Source of the DNA: Algoriphagus sp. TR-M9
Lineage (GTDB): Bacteria; Bacteroidota; Bacteroidia; Cytophagales; Cyclobacteriaceae
DNA length: 64,000 nt
Direction: 5' to 3'
Assembly: GCF_027594545.1 (NCBI RefSeq)
Contig: NZ_CP115160.1
Coordinates: forward strand, 4,584,501-4,648,500
Below the pieces are notes generated by a model, which was not told the DNA's origin, did not search any database, and saw only the letters and a list, made by a program, of their open reading frames with translations. Shown here in pieces: positions 55,715-64,000 of the stretch. Each line of letters opens with the position of its first letter. The first letter of the stretch is position 1. A program made the position numbers and the translations under genes.

Positions 55715-58700
55715 ATGGACAGTACATCCAATTGTCAATTCAGTGCCCGGCCACAGCAAAGTGGATTTTTCGAAAGGGCTACAGCATACCGAAGTTTAAA
55801 GGGATTCCTTACTGCAGGGCTACTGCTCCTGTTATTTTTTGCCTCGGGGCAGGTGGCTTTTTCTCAGGGTTTAGGTGATCCGATTTTTATCGAAGACTTT
55901 GGGACCATTAATGATGGGGAGACTCAGCATGTTTTTAATGACACCAGAAGTGGAACTAATGGGAGGGGTGTATACTTCAAATATGAATCATTGGATTATA
56001 TTACTTCAATGGATTTTTATACTCCTCAGCGATGGGGAACTAATCAATTTCCCTATCAAAATCAATATAGGTCGTCTGGACCGAGTATTCCTGGAGGAGT
56101 AAGTTATAACACCTCACCTGCTGGAGCTAACAATAATGTTCAAAATGGCAACTGGGGACCCGTTTTTGCAAATATTAGTGAAAGCAATGGAACGGGTATA
56201 GGGGGATATTCTATAACAAATGATTCTCGTGGCTATTACCAGCCTTATTTTGCCATTGGCACAGATCATACTACTGAAGATGCTGCGGATTACACGGGCT
56301 ACATGCTTTTGATAGATGCACACTCTTCCACTACACTTTATTTTGATAGAAAGATAGATGGTTTATGTGCCGGGACAAAATTTAGGTTTTCGGTTTGGAT
56401 CAAAGATATGAATGGCCAAGGAGGTGAGCCACCAAAGGTAAATTTTAAGATCTTAAATGGAATTAATGATAATCTAATCACTTCGAAGGCAACCACAGAT
56501 GATGATGTTGATCCAGCAGGAGAATGGAAGCAATTATATATTGATTTTCAAATGCCTGCCGGCGTTAGTAGTGTTAGACTCCAGATTGAAAACATAGTTG
56601 GTACTCAATATGGAAATGACTTAGCGATTGATGATATTAGTTTTGCTCCGCTTGGACCACCGGCGGAATTAATAGGTTTAGATGCGGTTTGTGTGGGGGA
56701 GGATCCAGGTTTAAAGGCAAGAATTACCGATGCTGATCCTGAGTTTGCATATTCCACTAATTATTTTCAGTTGCAATATAGAGAGGCTGATTCTCCTGAT
56801 GAGTGGATTAATATAGGTTCTACTTTATCAAATTCGGGTTCTTCAACTGATTATGTCGATTTCCCTAACCCTTATGCTCAACCAGGTTCTCCGCTTGACC
56901 CACTTACTGGATATGAGTTCAGAGTGGTAGTTGCGGGTGACCCAACAACCTTAGAAAATGAATTTTGTAGAGTAGTGTCTCCCAAATTCATAAATGTTTA
57001 CAGACATGAGGTTGCTTTGGAAGCAGAGCTAGAGGAAATTTGTATTGGAAGTTCTACTACAATTTCAGCTGCTGTTTCAAACGGAATTGGAACGCCTACT
57101 TATACCTATGTATGGGAAAAGGAAGTTGGTGGCAACTGGGAAGTAATTCCAAATGAAAATTCTTCTACTTTAAATACGGGAGCACTCTCCGAGTCAACTA
57201 CCTATAGAGCAAAAGCTTTGGTTAACAATTGTCCAGGGTCTGGGTATTCAGATCCTATTACGGTTACTGCGGTAGCTTGTACTGCGACAATAGAAAAGGT
57301 AATCACCAACTTGGCTAATATTCCTATAGTCACCACACCTGGGCAAACAGTGAATTATAGAGTCACTGTTTCGAATCCATCTTCTTTGGATTTGACCGGT
57401 GTTGTGGTCACGGATTTATTGCCGGATGGAAGTGCAGGAATCCTTGTTCAATCTCAAGGAAGTGATGATGATGGCATATTGAGTCCAAGTGAAACATGGG
57501 TTTACACGATATCTTATACTGCCAATAATTTTGATCTACAAAACAGGACAGAGCTCATAAATACTGCTACAGTAGATTCCAATGAGACAGAGCCCAAGTC
57601 GGATACTGCATCTATAGCTATTTTACCTTCAGTTGATTGTGAAAATGAAAACAGTTCTTATGACTTCCAGTGTAATGCTCAAGATATTACCGTAAGTGAG
57701 TTTTATCTAGGTGACCCTATTACAGGGGACGAGTTGGAGTCTTGTGTTGCGGGAAGTAGCCAGTCTGCTGGTATTTGGACTGTTTTTGGAGGTGCAAATC
57801 AAGGTGGGAATAATGAAAGATATAGCCTTTTGGTAAAGTATCAGTTGTATGTCAATGATGAATTTGTGGAGGATGTAGAGTTAGAACTTTTTGGTTCTAC
57901 AAATATTCCAAGAGGGGTTCCTATTAAAATTACAGATTATACTTGGACTTGTGGAGATAAGATAGAGTTTAAGGATTTTTTCATGTCCTGGAGTGCTAAT
58001 CAAAATAGCTGGGATGTTAGTGGGCCAAGGTGTATTAAGTGTTTTACTGGTTTTGTTGTAAATGCGCCGTTGGTAGCAAACTTTGAATACAGTGGTGCAT
58101 GTGAGTCAACGCAAGTGGCCTTTACTGACAAATCCACAGGGGGAGACAATTCAAATTATTCTTATACTTGGACTTTCGGTAATAACCTTGGTAATTCTAA
58201 TGCTTCCAACCCAAGCTTTGACTTTGGAAATCCAGGTACTTATGATGTAACCTTAGAAATTACTGATGGAGATGAAACAACTTCTATTACAAAGCAGGTT
58301 ACAATTGATGAACCTGTTACAGTTTCTGGCTCTTCCAATGGCGAAGTTTGTTTTGGTGCCAATGATGGAACTGTAAGCATCACCCCTGATGGAGGAGACG
58401 GTAGTTATTCCTATTCTTGGACTGGTCCTAATAGCTTTACTTCTAATGATCAAAACCTTACAGGTTTATCTCCAGGTACTTATGAAGTAAAAGTTACTGA
58501 TAGTAAAGGATGTTTTGTAATTGAGGAATATATTGTAGGAGCTGGAGAGCAAGTTGGTCTTCCGAATACAACTGATAAGGAATATTGTAAAGCTGATGAA
58601 GATTTTTACTATATAGTATCACCTACTTCAGCGAACTATGAAATAGTCTATTATACGACTCAGGTTTCTAATGATGGAACAACTACAGCTCCGGCGGTTG

Positions 58701-61700
58701 ATGGTAATAATGTTGGAGATTACTCAGTTTGGGTTAGTCAAAGAAATACAACTTCGGGTTGTGAAAGTGTAAGGAAAGAGGTTGAGATATCTATCATAGA
58801 TCTTCCTGTCCTTGTAGTTCAAAGTCCTGATCCAGTTTGCGGGCCAGCCGATATTGACTTAGCTGATGCGATTGACTTACAGGGCACTTCTCAGGGAGCA
58901 GATTTTACTTATTACAAGCAAGGAGAACCAGGTGAAATATCTTCTACGGTTTCTGAATCAGGCACCTATATAATCAGAGCTACAATCGGGGAGTGTTATG
59001 TAGAGGAAGAAGTAGAGGTAGTTATTAATGAGTGTGCGATCGCGATCATCAAGACGGTTGCACCGACGACAGCAGACGATTGTGTTGAGGCTGGCGATGA
59101 GTTGACCTACACGTTTGTGGTAAGAAATACAGGAACAGTGACCTTGGGTTCAGTAGCTGTGGCAGAGTTGAGCTTTAGTGGAACAGGCACTGCACCTGCG
59201 ATCACGTTTGTGGCCGCAGAGAGTGATAATGTAGAGGGCACGCTAGCTCCGGGCGAGGAAGCGACCTACACTGCCACGTATGTGGTGACCCCTGCCGATG
59301 TTGAGGCAGGATTGATCACGAACCAGGCGAGAGCGACAGGTCAGTTTGGTCAGAACACACCAGTGACCGATGATTCAGGTGAGAGCTTCGAGGTGGATGG
59401 ATTGACCGAGTTTGAGCTATGCCAGAAGGAGTCTATCGCGATCATCAAGACGGTTGCACCGACGACAGCAGACGATTGTGTTGAGGCTGGCGATGAGTTG
59501 ACCTACACGTTTGTGGTAAGAAATACAGGAACAGTGACCTTGGGTAATGTCTCTGTGGCAGAGTTGAGCTTCAGTGGCACAGGCACTGCACCGGCGATCA
59601 CGTTTGTGGCCGCAGAGAGTGATAATGTAGAGGGCACGCTAGCTCCGGGCGAGGAAGCGACCTACACTGCCACGTATGTGGTGACCCCTGCCGATGTTGA
59701 GGCAGGATTGATCACGAACCAGGCGAGAGCGACAGGTCAGTTTGGTCAGAACACACCAGTGACCGATGATTCAGGTGAGAGCTTCGAGGTGGATGGATTG
59801 ACCGAGTTTGAGCTATGCCAGAAGGAGTCTATCGCGATCATCAAGACGGTTGCACCGACGACAGCAGACGATTGTGTTGAGGCTGGCGATGAGTTGACCT
59901 ACACGTTTGTGGTAAGAAATACAGGTACGGTGACGTTGGGTAATGTCTCTGTGTCTGAGTTGAGCTTTAGTGGCACAGGCACTGCACCGGCGATCACGTT
60001 TGTGGCCGCAGAGAGTGATAATGTAGAGGGCACGCTAGCTCCGGGCGAGGAAGCGACCTACACTGCCACGTATGTGGTGACCCCTGCCGATGTTGAGGCA
60101 GGATTGATCACGAACCAGGCGAGAGCGACAGGTCAGTTTGGTCAGAACACACCAGTGACCGATGATTCAGGTGAGAGCTTCGAGGTGGATGGATTGACCG
60201 AGTTTGAGCTATGCCAGAAGGAGTCTATCGCGATCATCAAGACGGTTGCACCGACGACAGCAGACGATTGTGTTGAGGCTGGCGATGAGTTGACCTACAC
60301 GTTTGTGGTAAGAAATACAGGTACGGTGACGTTGGGTAATGTCTCTGTGTCTGAGTTGAGCTTTAGTGGCACAGGCACTGCACCGGCGATCACGTTTGTG
60401 GCCGCAGAGAGTGATAATGTAGAGGGCACGCTAGCTCCGGGCGAGGAAGCGACCTACACTGCCACGTATGTGGTGACCCCTGCCGATGTTGAGGCAGGAT
60501 TGATCACGAACCAGGCGAGAGCGACAGGTCAGTTTGGTCAGAACACACCAGTGACCGATGATTCAGGTGAGAGCTTCGAGGTGGATGGATTGACCGAGTT
60601 TGAGCTATGCCAGAAGGAGTCTATCGCGATCATCAAGACGGTTGCACCGACGACAGCAGACGATTGTGTTGAGGCTGGCGATGAGTTGACCTACACGTTT
60701 GTGGTAAGAAATACAGGTACGGTGACGTTGGGTAATGTCTCTGTGTCTGAGTTGAGCTTTAGTGGCACAGGCACTGCACCGGCGATCACGTTTGTGGCCG
60801 CAGAGAGTGATAATGTAGAGGGCACGCTAGCTCCGGGCGAGGAAGCGACCTACACTGCCACGTATGTGGTGACCCCTGCCGATGTTGAGGCAGGATTGAT
60901 CACGAACCAGGCGAGAGCGACAGGTCAGTTTGGTCAGAACACACCAGTGACCGATGATTCAGGTGAGAGCTTCGAGGTGGATGGATTGACCGAGTTTGAG
61001 CTATGCCAGAAGGAGTCTATCGCGATCATCAAGACGGTTGCACCGACGACAGCAGACGATTGTGTTGAGGCTGGCGATGAGTTGACCTACACGTTTGTGG
61101 TAAGAAATACAGGAACAGTGACCTTGGGTAATGTCTCTGTGGCAGAGTTGAGCTTCAGTGGAACAGGCACTGCACCGGCGATCACGTTTGTGGCCGCAGA
61201 GAGTGATAATGTAGAGGGCACGCTAGCTCCGGGCGAGGAAGCGACCTACACTGCCACGTATGTGGTGACCCCTGCCGATGTTGAGGCAGGATTGATCACG
61301 AACCAGGCGAGAGCGACAGGTCAGTTTGGTCAGAACACACCAGTGACCGATGATTCAGGTGAGAGCTTCGAGGTGGATGGATTGACCGAGTTTGAGCTAT
61401 GCCAGAAGGAGTCTATCGCGATCATCAAGACGGTTGCACCGACGACAGCAGACGATTGTGTTGAGGCTGGCGATGAGTTGACCTACACGTTTGTGGTAAG
61501 AAATACAGGTACGGTGACGTTGGGTAATGTCTCTGTGTCTGAGTTGAGCTTTAGTGGCACAGGCACTGCACCGGCGATCACGTTTGTGGCCGCAGAGAGT
61601 GATAATGTAGAGGGCACGCTAGCTCCGGGCGAGGAAGCGACCTACACTGCCACGTATGTGGTGACCCCTGCCGATGTTGAGGCAGGATTGATCACGAACC

Positions 61701-64000
61701 AGGCGAGAGCGACAGGTCAGTTTGGTCAGAACACACCAGTGACCGATGATTCAGGTGAGAGCTTCGAGGTGGATGGATTGACCGAGTTTGAGCTATGCCA
61801 GAAGGAGTCTATCGCGATCATCAAGACGGTTGCACCGACGACAGCAGACGATTGTGTTGAGGCTGGCGATGAGTTGACCTACACGTTTGTGGTAAGAAAT
61901 ACAGGTACGGTGACGTTGGGTAATGTCTCTGTGTCTGAGTTGAGCTTTAGTGGCACAGGCACTGCACCGGCGATCACGTTTGTGGCCGCAGAGAGTGATA
62001 ATGTAGAGGGCACGCTAGCTCCGGGCGAGGAAGCGACCTACACTGCCACGTATGTGGTGACCCCTGCCGATGTTGAGGCAGGATTGATCACGAACCAGGC
62101 GAGAGCGACAGGTCAGTTTGGTCAGAACACACCAGTGACCGATGATTCAGGTGAGAGCTTCGAGGTGGATGGATTGACCGAGTTTGAGCTATGCCAGAAG
62201 GAGTCTATCGCGATCATCAAGACGGTTGCACCGACGACAGCAGACGATTGTGTTGAGGCTGGCGATGAGTTGACCTACACGTTTGTGGTAAGAAATACAG
62301 GTACGGTGACGTTGGGTAATGTCTCTGTGTCTGAGTTGAGCTTTAGTGGCACAGGCACTGCACCGGCGATCACGTTTGTGGCCGCAGAGAGTGATAATGT
62401 AGAGGGCACGCTAGCTCCGGGCGAGGAAGCGACCTACACTGCCACGTATGTGGTGACCCCTGCCGATGTTGAGGCAGGATTGATCACGAACCAGGCGAGA
62501 GCGACAGGTCAGTTTGGTCAGAACACACCAGTGACCGATGATTCAGGTGAGAGCTTCGAGGTGGATGGATTGACCGAGTTTGAGCTATGCCAGAAGGAGT
62601 CTATCGCGATCATCAAGACGGTTGCACCGACGACAGCAGACGATTGTGTTGAGGCTGGCGATGAGTTGACCTACACGTTTGTGGTAAGAAATACAGGTAC
62701 GGTGACGTTGGGTAATGTCTCTGTGTCTGAGTTGAGCTTTAGTGGCACAGGCACTGCACCGGCGATCACGTTTGTGGCCGCAGAGAGTGATAATGTAGAG
62801 GGCACGCTAGCTCCGGGCGAGGAAGAGACCTACACTGCCACGTATGTGGTGACCCCTGCCGATGTTGAGGCAGGATTGATCACGAACCAGGCGAGAGCGA
62901 CAGGTCAGTTTGGTCAGAACACACCAGTGACCGATGATTCAGGTGAGAGCTTCGAGGTGGATGGATTGACCGAGTTTGAGCTATGCCAGAAGGAGTCTAT
63001 CGCGATCATCAAGACGGTTGCACCGACGACAGCAGACGATTGTGTTGAGGCTGGCGATGAGTTGACCTACACGTTTGTGGTAAGAAATACAGGTACGGTG
63101 ACGTTGGGTAATGTCTCTGTGTCTGAGTTGAGCTTTAGTGGCACAGGCACTGCACCGGCGATCACGTTTGTGGCCGCAGAGAGTGATAATGTAGAGGGCA
63201 CGCTAGCTCCGGGCGAGGAAGCGACCTACACTGCCACGTATGTGGTGACCCCTGCCGATGTTGAGGCAGGATTGATCACGAACCAGGCGAGAGCGACAGG
63301 TCAGTTTGGTCAGAACACACCAGTGACCGATGATTCAGGTGAGAGCTTCGAGGTGGATGGATTGACCGAGTTTGAGCTATGCCAGAAGGAGTCTATCGCG
63401 ATCATCAAGACGGTTGCACCGACGACAGCAGACGATTGTGTTGAGGCTGGCGATGAGTTGACCTACACGTTTGTGGTAAGAAATACAGGTACGGTGACGT
63501 TGGGTAATGTCTCTGTGTCTGAGTTGAGCTTTAGTGGCACAGGCACTGCACCGGCGATCACGTTTGTGGCCGCAGAGAGTGATAATGTAGAGGGCACGCT
63601 AGCTCCGGGCGAGGAAGCGACCTACACTGCCACGTATGTGGTGACCCCTGCCGATGTTGAGGCAGGATTGATCACGAACCAGGCGAGAGCGACAGGTCAG
63701 TTTGGTCAGAACACACCAGTGACCGATGATTCAGGTGAGAGCTTCGAGGTGGATGGATTGACCGAGTTTGAGCTATGCCAGAAGGAGTCTATCGCGATCA
63801 TCAAGACGGTTGCACCGACGACAGCAGACGATTGTGTTGAGGCTGGCGATGAGTTGACCTACACGTTTGTGGTAAGAAATACAGGTACGGTGACGTTGGG
63901 TAATGTCTCTGTGTCTGAGTTGAGCTTTAGTGGCACAGGCACTGCACCGGCGATCACGTTTGTGGCCGCAGAGAGTGATAATGTAGAGGGCACGCTAGCT
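55715..64000 (+). CDS. Giant repetitive surface protein (adhesin-like), 3' end outside the window
   Basis: The ATG at 55715 opens a frame with no stop to base 64000: 2762 codons, exactly in frame at the edge. The N terminus (MDSTSNCQFSARPQQSG) has a long leader, then a hydrophobic segment (about 30-50) ending VAFSQ, a signal peptide. Domain order: beta-sandwich-type N-terminal region (to about 320), a segment with Cys pairs (about 430-520), a DUF11-like domain (about 523-637), a PKD domain (about 785-867), a SprB-like repeat (about 869-933, GSSNGEVCFGANDGTVSI), then from about 1109 a tandem DUF11/DUF7507-like array. Such giant proteins of Bacteroidetes are exported, often by type IX secretion, and used in adhesion or gliding. 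The C-terminal sorting region is not in view. Confidence 0.92.
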   Translation, partial: MDSTSNCQFSARPQQSGFFERATAYRSLKGFLTAGLLLLLFFASGQVAFSQGLGDPIFIEDFGTINDGETQHVFNDTRSGTNGRGVYFKYESLDYITSMDFYTPQRWGTNQFPYQNQYRSSGPSIPGGVSYNTSPAGANNNVQNGNWGPVFANISESNGTGIGGYSITNDSRGYYQPYFAIGTDHTTEDAADYTGYMLLIDAHSSTTLYFDRKIDGLCAGTKFRFSVWIKDMNGQGGEPPKVNFKILNGINDNLITSKATTDDDVDPAGEWKQLYIDFQMPAGVSSVRLQIENIVGTQYGNDLAIDDISFAPLGPPAELIGLDAVCVGEDPGLKARITDADPEFAYSTNYFQLQYREADSPDEWINIGSTLSNSGSSTDYVDFPNPYAQPGSPLDPLTGYEFRVVVAGDPTTLENEFCRVVSPKFINVYRHEVALEAELEEICIGSSTTISAAVSNGIGTPTYTYVWEKEVGGNWEVIPNENSSTLNTGALSESTTYRAKALVNNCPGSGYSDPITVTAVACTATIEKVITNLANIPIVTTPGQTVNYRVTVSNPSSLDLTGVVVTDLLPDGSAGILVQSQGSDDDGILSPSETWVYTISYTANNFDLQNRTELINTATVDSNETEPKSDTASIAILPSVDCENENSSYDFQCNAQDITVSEFYLGDPITGDELESCVAGSSQSAGIWTVFGGANQGGNNERYSLLVKYQLYVNDEFVEDVELELFGSTNIPRGVPIKITDYTWTCGDKIEFKDFFMSWSANQNSWDVSGPRCIKCFTGFVVNAPLVANFEYSGACESTQVAFTDKSTGGDNSNYSYTWTFGNNLGNSNASNPSFDFGNPGTYDVTLEITDGDETTSITKQVTIDEPVTVSGSSNGEVCFGANDGTVSITPDGGDGSYSYSWTGPNSFTSNDQNLTGLSPGTYEVKVTDSKGCFVIEEYIVGAGEQVGLPNTTDKEYCKADEDFYYIVSPTSANYEIVYYTTQVSNDGTTTAPAVDGNNVGDYSVWVSQRNTTSGCESVRKEVEISIIDLPVLVVQSPDPVCGPADIDLADAIDLQGTSQGADFTYYKQGEPGEISSTVSESGTYIIRATIGECYVEEEVEVVINECAIAIIKTVAPTTADDCVEAGDELTYTFVVRNTGTVTLGSVAVAELSFSGTGTAPAITFVAAESDNVEGTLAPGEEATYTATYVVTPADVEAGLITNQARATGQFGQNTPVTDDSGESFEVDGLTEFELCQKESIAIIKTVAPTTADDCVEAGDELTYTFVVRNTGTVTLGNVSVAELSFSGTGTAPAITFVAAESDNVEGTLAPGEEATYTATYVVTPADVEAGLITNQARATGQFGQNTPVTDDSGESFEVDGLTEFELCQKESIAIIKTVAPTTADDCVEAGDELTYTFVVRNTGTVTLGNVSVSELSFSGTGTAPAITFVAAESDNVEGTLAPGEEATYTATYVVTPADVEAGLITNQARATGQFGQNTPVTDDSGESFEVDGLTEFELCQKESIAIIKTVAPTTADDCVEAGDELTYTFVVRNTGTVTLGNVSVSELSFSGTGTAPAITFVAAESDNVEGTLAPGEEATYTATYVVTPADVEAGLITNQARATGQFGQNTPVTDDSGESFEVDGLTEFELCQKESIAIIKTVAPTTADDCVEAGDELTYTFVVRNTGTVTLGNVSVSELSFSGTGTAPAITFVAAESDNVEGTLAPGEEATYTATYVVTPADVEAGLITNQARATGQFGQNTPVTDDSGESFEVDGLTEFELCQKESIAIIKTVAPTTADDCVEAGDELTYTFVVRNTGTVTLGNVSVAELSFSGTGTAPAITFVAAESDNVEGTLAPGEEATYTATYVVTPADVEAGLITNQARATGQFGQNTPVTDDSGESFEVDGLTEFELCQKESIAIIKTVAPTTADDCVEAGDELTYTFVVRNTGTVTLGNVSVSELSFSGTGTAPAITFVAAESDNVEGTLAPGEEATYTATYVVTPADVEAGLITNQARATGQFGQNTPVTDDSGESFEVDGLTEFELCQKESIAIIKTVAPTTADDCVEAGDELTYTFVVRNTGTVTLGNVSVSELSFSGTGTAPAITFVAAESDNVEGTLAPGEEATYTATYVVTPADVEAGLITNQARATGQFGQNTPVTDDSGESFEVDGLTEFELCQKESIAIIKTVAPTTADDCVEAGDELTYTFVVRNTGTVTLGNVSVSELSFSGTGTAPAITFVAAESDNVEGTLAPGEEATYTATYVVTPADVEAGLITNQARATGQFGQNTPVTDDSGESFEVDGLTEFELCQKESIAIIKTVAPTTADDCVEAGDELTYTFVVRNTGTVTLGNVSVSELSFSGTGTAPAITFVAAESDNVEGTLAPGEEETYTATYVVTPADVEAGLITNQARATGQFGQNTPVTDDSGESFEVDGLTEFELCQKESIAIIKTVAPTTADDCVEAGDELTYTFVVRNTGTVTLGNVSVSELSFSGTGTAPAITFVAAESDNVEGTLAPGEEATYTATYVVTPADVEAGLITNQARATGQFGQNTPVTDDSGESFEVDGLTEFELCQKESIAIIKTVAPTTADDCVEAGDELTYTFVVRNTGTVTLGNVSVSELSFSGTGTAPAITFVAAESDNVEGTLAPGEEATYTATYVVTPADVEAGLITNQARATGQFGQNTPVTDDSGESFEVDGLTEFELCQKESIAIIKTVAPTTADDCVEAGDELTYTFVVRNTGTVTLGNVSVSELSFSGTGTAPAITFVAAESDNVEGTLA
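59041..64000 (+). repeat. Tandem array: 12 full and 1 partial 396-bp repeats inside the giant gene
   Basis: Units start at 59041, 59437, 59833, 60229, 60625, 61021, 61417, 61813, 62209, 62605, 63001, 63397 and 63793, always 396 bp (132 codons). Each encodes a DUF11/DUF7507-like immunoglobulin-type domain with AIIKTVAPTTADDCVEAGDE at the start and two Cys (DDCVEAG, ELCQKE). Units 3-5 and 7-9 and 11-13 look identical; unit 1 is most divergent, units 2 and 6 share GTVTLGNVSVAE instead of GTVTLGNVSVSE, and unit 10 has a single Ala-to-Glu change at 62826. Confidence 0.97.

Follow-up and report, generated by a model that had tools for sequence, protein, structure and literature searches.

A near-identical DUF7507 repeat array of differing copy number in a giant predicted T9SS surface protein of Algoriphagus sp. 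TR-M9

Periscope Proteins, which include SasG, Rib, Sgo_0707 and CdrA, are the closest described systems to the locus reported here (Whelan et al. 2021, PMC8201768; review PMC9704523), and for these proteins recombination between near-identical repeats has been proposed to change the length of the stalk (PMC8201768). The giant protein of Algoriphagus sp. TR-M9 shares with them a single-chain, presumably surface-exposed architecture, long and highly identical DNA repeats that encode folded domains, and a stalk that lies between a putative functional part and an anchor. It also shares a repeat number that differs between very similar genomes, here two genomes that possibly represent the same strain. 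The anchoring route and the domain differ from those of the examples described in these articles. Type B T9SS sorting and probable anchoring through PorP stand in place of sortase anchoring and inverse autotransporters, the repeating unit is a DUF7507 domain, and two separate arrays of one protein change in number. The Gram-positive proteins Alpha C / Rib and Esp, as treated in PMC8201768, likewise vary in the copy number of a tandem domain, but they have other folds and other anchoring, and immune selection is discussed there for the Gram-positive proteins.

A second point of comparison is provided by the SprB-type T9SS type B proteins that pair with SprF (PMC9143113), with which the TR-M9 protein has in common a type B sorting domain, a neighbouring PorP/SprF gene, a PorE-like OmpA gene and an SprB repeat domain. 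What sets it apart is the array of near-identical DUF7507 units, and the likeness to SprB is known here from sequence and not from gliding. DUF7507 itself has been renamed CLIPPER_2, and DUF11 CLIPPER, in an account of both as isopeptide stalk domains (PMC12617251). The term "Bacteroid" does not occur in the main text of PMC8201768 or of PMC9704523, nor does "DUF11" in the available text of the fibrillar adhesin survey PMC8286594. In the open-licence PMC literature on Algoriphagus adhesins, T9SS, tandem repeats or DUF7507, the locus is not reported in the titles and abstract openings of the matches listed. Open-licence papers joining T9SS, tandem repeats, adhesin and SprB yielded nothing on a change in repeat number, and those on Bacteroidetes adhesin repeats nothing on a stalk of variable repeat number; no open-licence PMC paper was found that treats isopeptide bonds, tandem repeats, repeat number and adhesins jointly. 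If the reading given below is true, it extends the idea of the variable-length stalk to T9SS surface proteins of Bacteroidota.

The window, the whole stretch of DNA that was analysed, comprises 64,000 nt (C1:4584501-4648500) of the TR-M9 genome, a single contig of 4,816,080 bp, and it ends inside the thirteenth unit of the main array. The giant gene lies on the forward strand, where it begins with an ATG at position 55715, runs to the window end (55715..64000) and stops at 71785 in continued window coordinates; the open reading frame, the genome continuation and the protein database entry P0001 agree on a product of 5,356 residues. Its N-terminal part before the array (55715..59038, forward strand, 1,108 aa) has a signal-peptide-like start, as judged by eye, and Pfam matches to PKD, DUF11/DUF7507 and the SprB repeat, the last at 34.8 bits against a cut-off of 28 over 28 residues. 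No adhesive domain exceeds its Pfam cut-off in the N-terminal part of this protein, where CBM_4_9 scores 21 against 25.9. The array, which we call array 1, follows in frame within the 5,356 codons. One unit amounts to 132 residues and one DUF7507 domain (PF24346, 273.9 bits against a cut-off of 27), and four stretches of a 1,503-aa piece of the protein match this family. Downstream of array 1 are further DUF7507/DUF11 domains, a small second array (array 2) of two copies of a 129-residue unit that differ at 7 of 387 bases, and a C-terminal T9SS type B sorting domain (TIGR04131, 45.8 bits against a cut-off of 35; CHU_C, 81.9 against 27).

The adjoining downstream gene belongs to the PorP/SprF family (TIGR03519, 293.6 bits against a cut-off of 90.55). 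It is followed by an OmpA/PorE-like gene that stays under the family cut-offs, with a PorE score of 146.8 against 600 for the part of the gene that was scanned. It has been reported that PorE, PorP and a type B substrate form a complex and that SprB binds to SprF (PMC9143113), which makes anchoring through PorP a reasonable proposal; we consider that the giant protein is probably held in this way, by analogy with those complexes. The sorting domain and the PorP/SprF neighbour would place the protein at the cell surface. The description of it as a putative adhesin draws on its domains and on its relatives, in which P0010 of A. vanfongensis carries a putative ice-binding-like adhesive domain (pAdhesive_15, 138 bits against 23.8) and P0009, from another Algoriphagus relative, matches CBM_4_9 over its cut-off (36.5 against 25.9).

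TRF detects a single array in the 64,000-nt window, from 59039 to the window end, with a period of 396, 12.5 copies, 99% matches and 0% indels, and direct unit-by-unit comparison resolves it into 12 complete 396-bp units and the first 210 bases of a thirteenth (63791..64000). The original prediction had described thirteen near-identical units of 396 bp beginning at 59041. Both the period and the near-identity, which extends to silent sites, hold, the start needs a small correction to 59039, and the count is an effect of the window: on the forward strand of the genome the array spans C1:4643539-4649867, to 65367 in continued window coordinates, and contains 16 units. Their order is a b c c c b' c c c c* c c c c c* c, of which the first thirteen reproduce exactly the sequence of unit types that had been proposed (1,2,3,3,3,2',3,3,3,3*,3,3,3); units 14-16, past the window end, are c, c* and c.

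The majority type, c, is first seen in unit 3 (59831..60226), which served as the query unit. Relative to it, type a (unit 1, 59039..59434) has 12 differences and type b (unit 2, 59435..59830) has six, whereas type b' (unit 6, 61019..61414) is type b with one further difference, and type c* (unit 10, 62603..62998, and again unit 15 past the window) carries one A-to-E change. Unit 16 is of type c up to position 389 and departs from it only in the final 7 positions, at the junction with the next domain. Over these 389 positions the 16 units have a mean pairwise identity of 99.2% and a minimum of 96.7%, and 56 of the 120 pairs are identical. The homologous domain that comes directly after the array, in contrast, shares only 49% of its positions with unit c when the nucleotides are compared without gaps. 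Only 14 positions vary along the array, and 13 of them fall, in register, within 64 bases (59134..59197 in unit 1), a clustering that none of 200,000 random placements of 14 positions matched.

To compare copy number, we searched for the N-terminal region among proteins 0.55 to 1.75 times the length of the giant protein. Two proteins matched at 100% identity, P0001 itself (5,356 aa) and a protein of 6,010 residues encoded on a contig of 4,756,369 bases; a search of shorter proteins with the N-terminal region gave none above 87% identity. In the second genome array 1 has 19 units against 16 here and array 2 has four against two, in a comparison of n = 2 genomes in which the second is represented by its protein and could be no more than a further assembly of one strain. 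The added units (3 x 132 + 2 x 129 = 654 residues) account for the entire difference in length. Outside the arrays, over 2,986 residues, the two proteins are distinguished by a pair of adjacent positions, both within the 952 residues that separate the arrays; the 1,108 residues preceding array 1 and the 926 following array 2 are identical. At the protein level the second array 1 reads a, b, twelve c, b, four c, and the A-to-E change of c* occurs in none of its 19 units, compared with 2 of 16 here. No gain or loss of one block converts either order into the other at the protein level, with the c* marks ignored and insertion of a block of any content allowed; because any content was allowed, two events are the minimum. 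The variation in length that had been foreseen is borne out in the single comparison available (19 against 16 and 4 against 2 units, n = 2), and the claim of recent recombinational turnover gains support both from a copy-number difference between near-identical genomes and from unit orders that no single block event links.

Taken together, these observations make it likely that recombination between near-identical units alters the length of the stalk and at the same time keeps the units alike. Each 396-bp unit encodes one Ig-like DUF7507 domain, and in the mechanism that we propose neighbouring units, because their DNA is nearly identical, would misalign and recombine, so that whole units are gained or lost in frame. 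The same exchange would spread variants along the array and so maintain its homogeneity, and each gain or loss would alter the length of the stalk and with it the distance from the cell at which the N-terminal part would be held. That the process is homologous recombination and that its outcome is such a variable distance, as well as the surface location and rod-like form of the stalk, are what we infer. Overall, we have good though incomplete confidence that the protein is a stalk of variable length of the Periscope type, exported by the T9SS and probably anchored through PorP. Since their copies of this protein differ almost only in repeat number, the two genomes form a natural pair for tests of what stalk length does.

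Among 71 genomes of the genus, six, TR-M9 included, contain the N-terminal region at an E value of 1e-10 or better. At all six loci it is accompanied by the C-terminal part and then by PorP-like and OmpA-like genes, which were recognised by likeness in the five relatives. What lies between these ends varies: one relative has the same unit, two apparently have another expanded domain, and two have no array. In A. locisalis (G020) the same unit, 92% identical, stands at two contig ends that match each other exactly over 297 bases, so that its contigs break inside array 1 on both sides; its unit agrees with type c at 13 of the 14 variable positions and with type b at the remaining one, and its array 2 has four copies of 417 bases. 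In G068 and G010 the contigs also break at the place of array 1, in a DUF11-type unit instead (DUF11 match in A. vanfongensis P0010, a G068-type protein), with 232 bases (100%) and 317 bases (99%) in common between their two contig ends. Judging by these breaks and by flanks that match, the contigs appear to join across arrays of a different domain. Where array 2 would lie, G068 has 3.2 copies of 387 bases and G010 a run of N. Array 1 is missing from the orthologues of G025 (1,325 codons) and G051 (940 codons), which retain the N-terminal region as well as the sorting-domain end.

The most interesting lead to come from these relatives is the apparent presence of different expanded domains at one and the same place. 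We tentatively raise the possibility, for which we would claim somewhat less than even chances, that the gene contains an "array slot", a conserved site flanked by an N-terminal part and an anchor part that are both fixed, in which several Algoriphagus species hold a recombining array whose expanded domain differs by species (the 132-aa DUF7507 unit in TR-M9 and A. locisalis, a domain of DUF11 type in two further species). Selection would then act on length and not on the sequence of the unit, and length would change faster than point mutation alters the remainder of the protein. The relatives also bear on the alternative that repeat number is neutral, the array growing and shrinking because it is able to and the length of the stalk having no role. 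Two orthologues that lack the array (1,325 and 940 codons) keep the N-terminal region, the sorting domain and the PorP and OmpA genes, and a long stalk would seem dispensable in the G025 and G051 species because these other parts are kept without it. Yet a repeat stretch occupies this place in four of the six orthologues, apparently built from another domain in two of them, which suggests that length is favoured, and elsewhere in bacteria changes in length have been linked to selection, as discussed by Whelan et al. (2021, PMC8201768). We consider neutrality unlikely, though it is an explanation to be taken seriously.

The relatives also inform the question of whether the copy number could be an assembly artefact, by collapse or over-expansion of a repeat that exceeds the read length. 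An assembler has difficulty with 6.3 kb of near-identical units, the drafts of the relatives break at the array, and the recurrence of c* at a spacing of five units could also come from a mis-joined assembly. Against this, the array contains marker units (a, b, b', c*), each of the two genomes is assembled into one contig of about 4.8 Mb, and the contigs of three related species, which break at this very place, reveal repeats there independently of this assembly; moreover, an artefact would leave the homogenised units themselves unexplained. On balance we hold an artefact to be improbable. For draft genomes the breaks serve as a warning, as the contigs of all three related drafts in which an array is present or presumed at this place end inside it.

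Divergence from A. locisalis at fourfold sites is 173/434 in the N-terminal part, 14/64 in the unit, 69/279 between the arrays and 88/413 in the C-terminal part. That units diverge between the two species yet little within the array is the mark of concerted evolution. That the likeness of the units comes from purifying selection acting strongly on both the protein and its DNA and not from recent recombination, a notion that the very high protein identity and the unusual third positions might suggest (GC3 of 0.576 in the unit against 0.274 in the N-terminal part), strikes us as highly improbable, given that 14 of 64 fourfold sites of the unit differ between the species, yet 56 of 120 pairs within the array are identical, and that copy number differs between near-identical genomes. 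As a separate observation, the stretch from the array to the end of the gene has a fourfold difference from A. locisalis of 0.21-0.25, compared with 0.40 in the N-terminal part and 0.45-0.66 in four downstream genes; this lower divergence may reflect exchange between species or constraint.

Recombinational homogenisation of the units, our preferred reading, also bears on the divergent first unit and on the order of the types. Type a has five differences in common with b and six with b', silent ones included. When an 85-base patch of unit 1 was compared with the whole of its own genome, 23 matches were obtained, comprising the 16 array units and seven short hits with E values of 0.05 or worse. 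Gene conversion of this patch from a donor elsewhere in the genome is accordingly not supported, as no match outside the array exceeds chance level. A simpler reading is that the patch represents older variation that would have survived near the 5' edge of the array while the rest was homogenised.

The original prediction had further seen in the unit order a four-unit block that was duplicated once and then followed by single-unit expansion. A four-unit period is indeed present, with b-type units at positions 2 and 6, but a five-unit period fits too because in the full array c* stands at units 10 and 15, units 7-11 and 12-16 both reading c c c c* c. We asked how far the order contracts by removal of tandem copies, a test with few markers in which the order reduces to length 5 if b and b' are treated as one type and to 7 if they are kept separate, with permutations made for the former only. 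Among 2,000 random orders with unit 1 fixed, 582 contracted to length 5 or less, like the real order. The pattern is compatible with block duplication without proving it: its fit is not significant, and we set the unit order aside as evidence while keeping block duplication as a possibility. Better evidence for multi-unit events is provided by the comparison of the orders in the two genomes than by the unit order alone.

To examine the fold of the stalk, we modeled units 3-4 with AlphaFold2 from a 14-row alignment. The model (mean pLDDT 84.3, pTM 0.71) consists of two tandem beta-sandwiches, with a poorly predicted stretch late in each unit where residues ~111-120 have a pLDDT <60. This pTM and the weak linker count against reading a rod directly from the model, and the rod-like shape of the stalk is a prediction. 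The unit matches the DUF7507 family over its cut-off, and its Lys 5, Glu 43 and Asn 95 align with the Lys, acid and Asn of the isopeptide domains, Lys 5 and Asn 95 being conserved in the alignment; the acid of the DUF7507 example shown in PMC12617251 is Asp, whereas that of the unit is Glu 43. In the CnaA-like domains described in that paper, Lys and Asn link the first and penultimate strands and Asp is typical. In the model Lys 5 belongs to the first strand (residues 2-8), Glu 43 to strand 36-46 and Asn 95 to strand 92-103, an arrangement that fits roughly with a putative Lys-Asn isopeptide bond in which Glu would act as the acid. An Ig-like domain is about 4 nm long. At this spacing, the three units by which the two array 1 copies differ would shift the length of a straight stalk by roughly 12 nm.

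The base composition of array 1 stands out in the gene, with a GC content of 0.54 against 0.37-0.48 in the rest. The difference in GC3 between the unit and the N-terminal part recurs in A. locisalis (0.557 against 0.276). GC-biased conversion was considered as the source of the high GC and rejected, because GC3 does not track homogeneity in a second giant gene of the genome: there the blocks of the most homogeneous array (C1:4682503-4685024) have a GC3 of 0.43-0.51, and one block outside it reaches 0.598.

This second giant gene (C1:4660375-4687212, about 8,945 codons) consists almost wholly of diverged DUF11/DUF7507 domains, accounts for 74 of the 106 DUF7507 matches in the genome and has one stretch of greater homogeneity, with 7.9 copies of a 321-base repeat at 91%. 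It belongs to the second of two tandem cassettes, each made up of a giant gene, a PorP/SprF gene and an OmpA gene, with the PorP-OmpA regions at C1:4656317-4659825 and 4687282-4690670. Between the cassettes PorP is 99.7% identical over 911 bases and OmpA 99.3% over 2,474 bases, with 9 of 345 fourfold sites in OmpA different, and the identity begins after the PorP signal peptide. The same PorP and OmpA stretches are about 75% and 69% identical to those of A. locisalis, where the stretch examined contains a single cassette. This pattern points to a recent event at the anchor genes, either gene conversion or duplication. Another large open frame, the third, of 4,929 aa, also has DUF7507 matches and lies at C1:1252801-1256374, as do 14 copies of a 255-base repeat at 89%.
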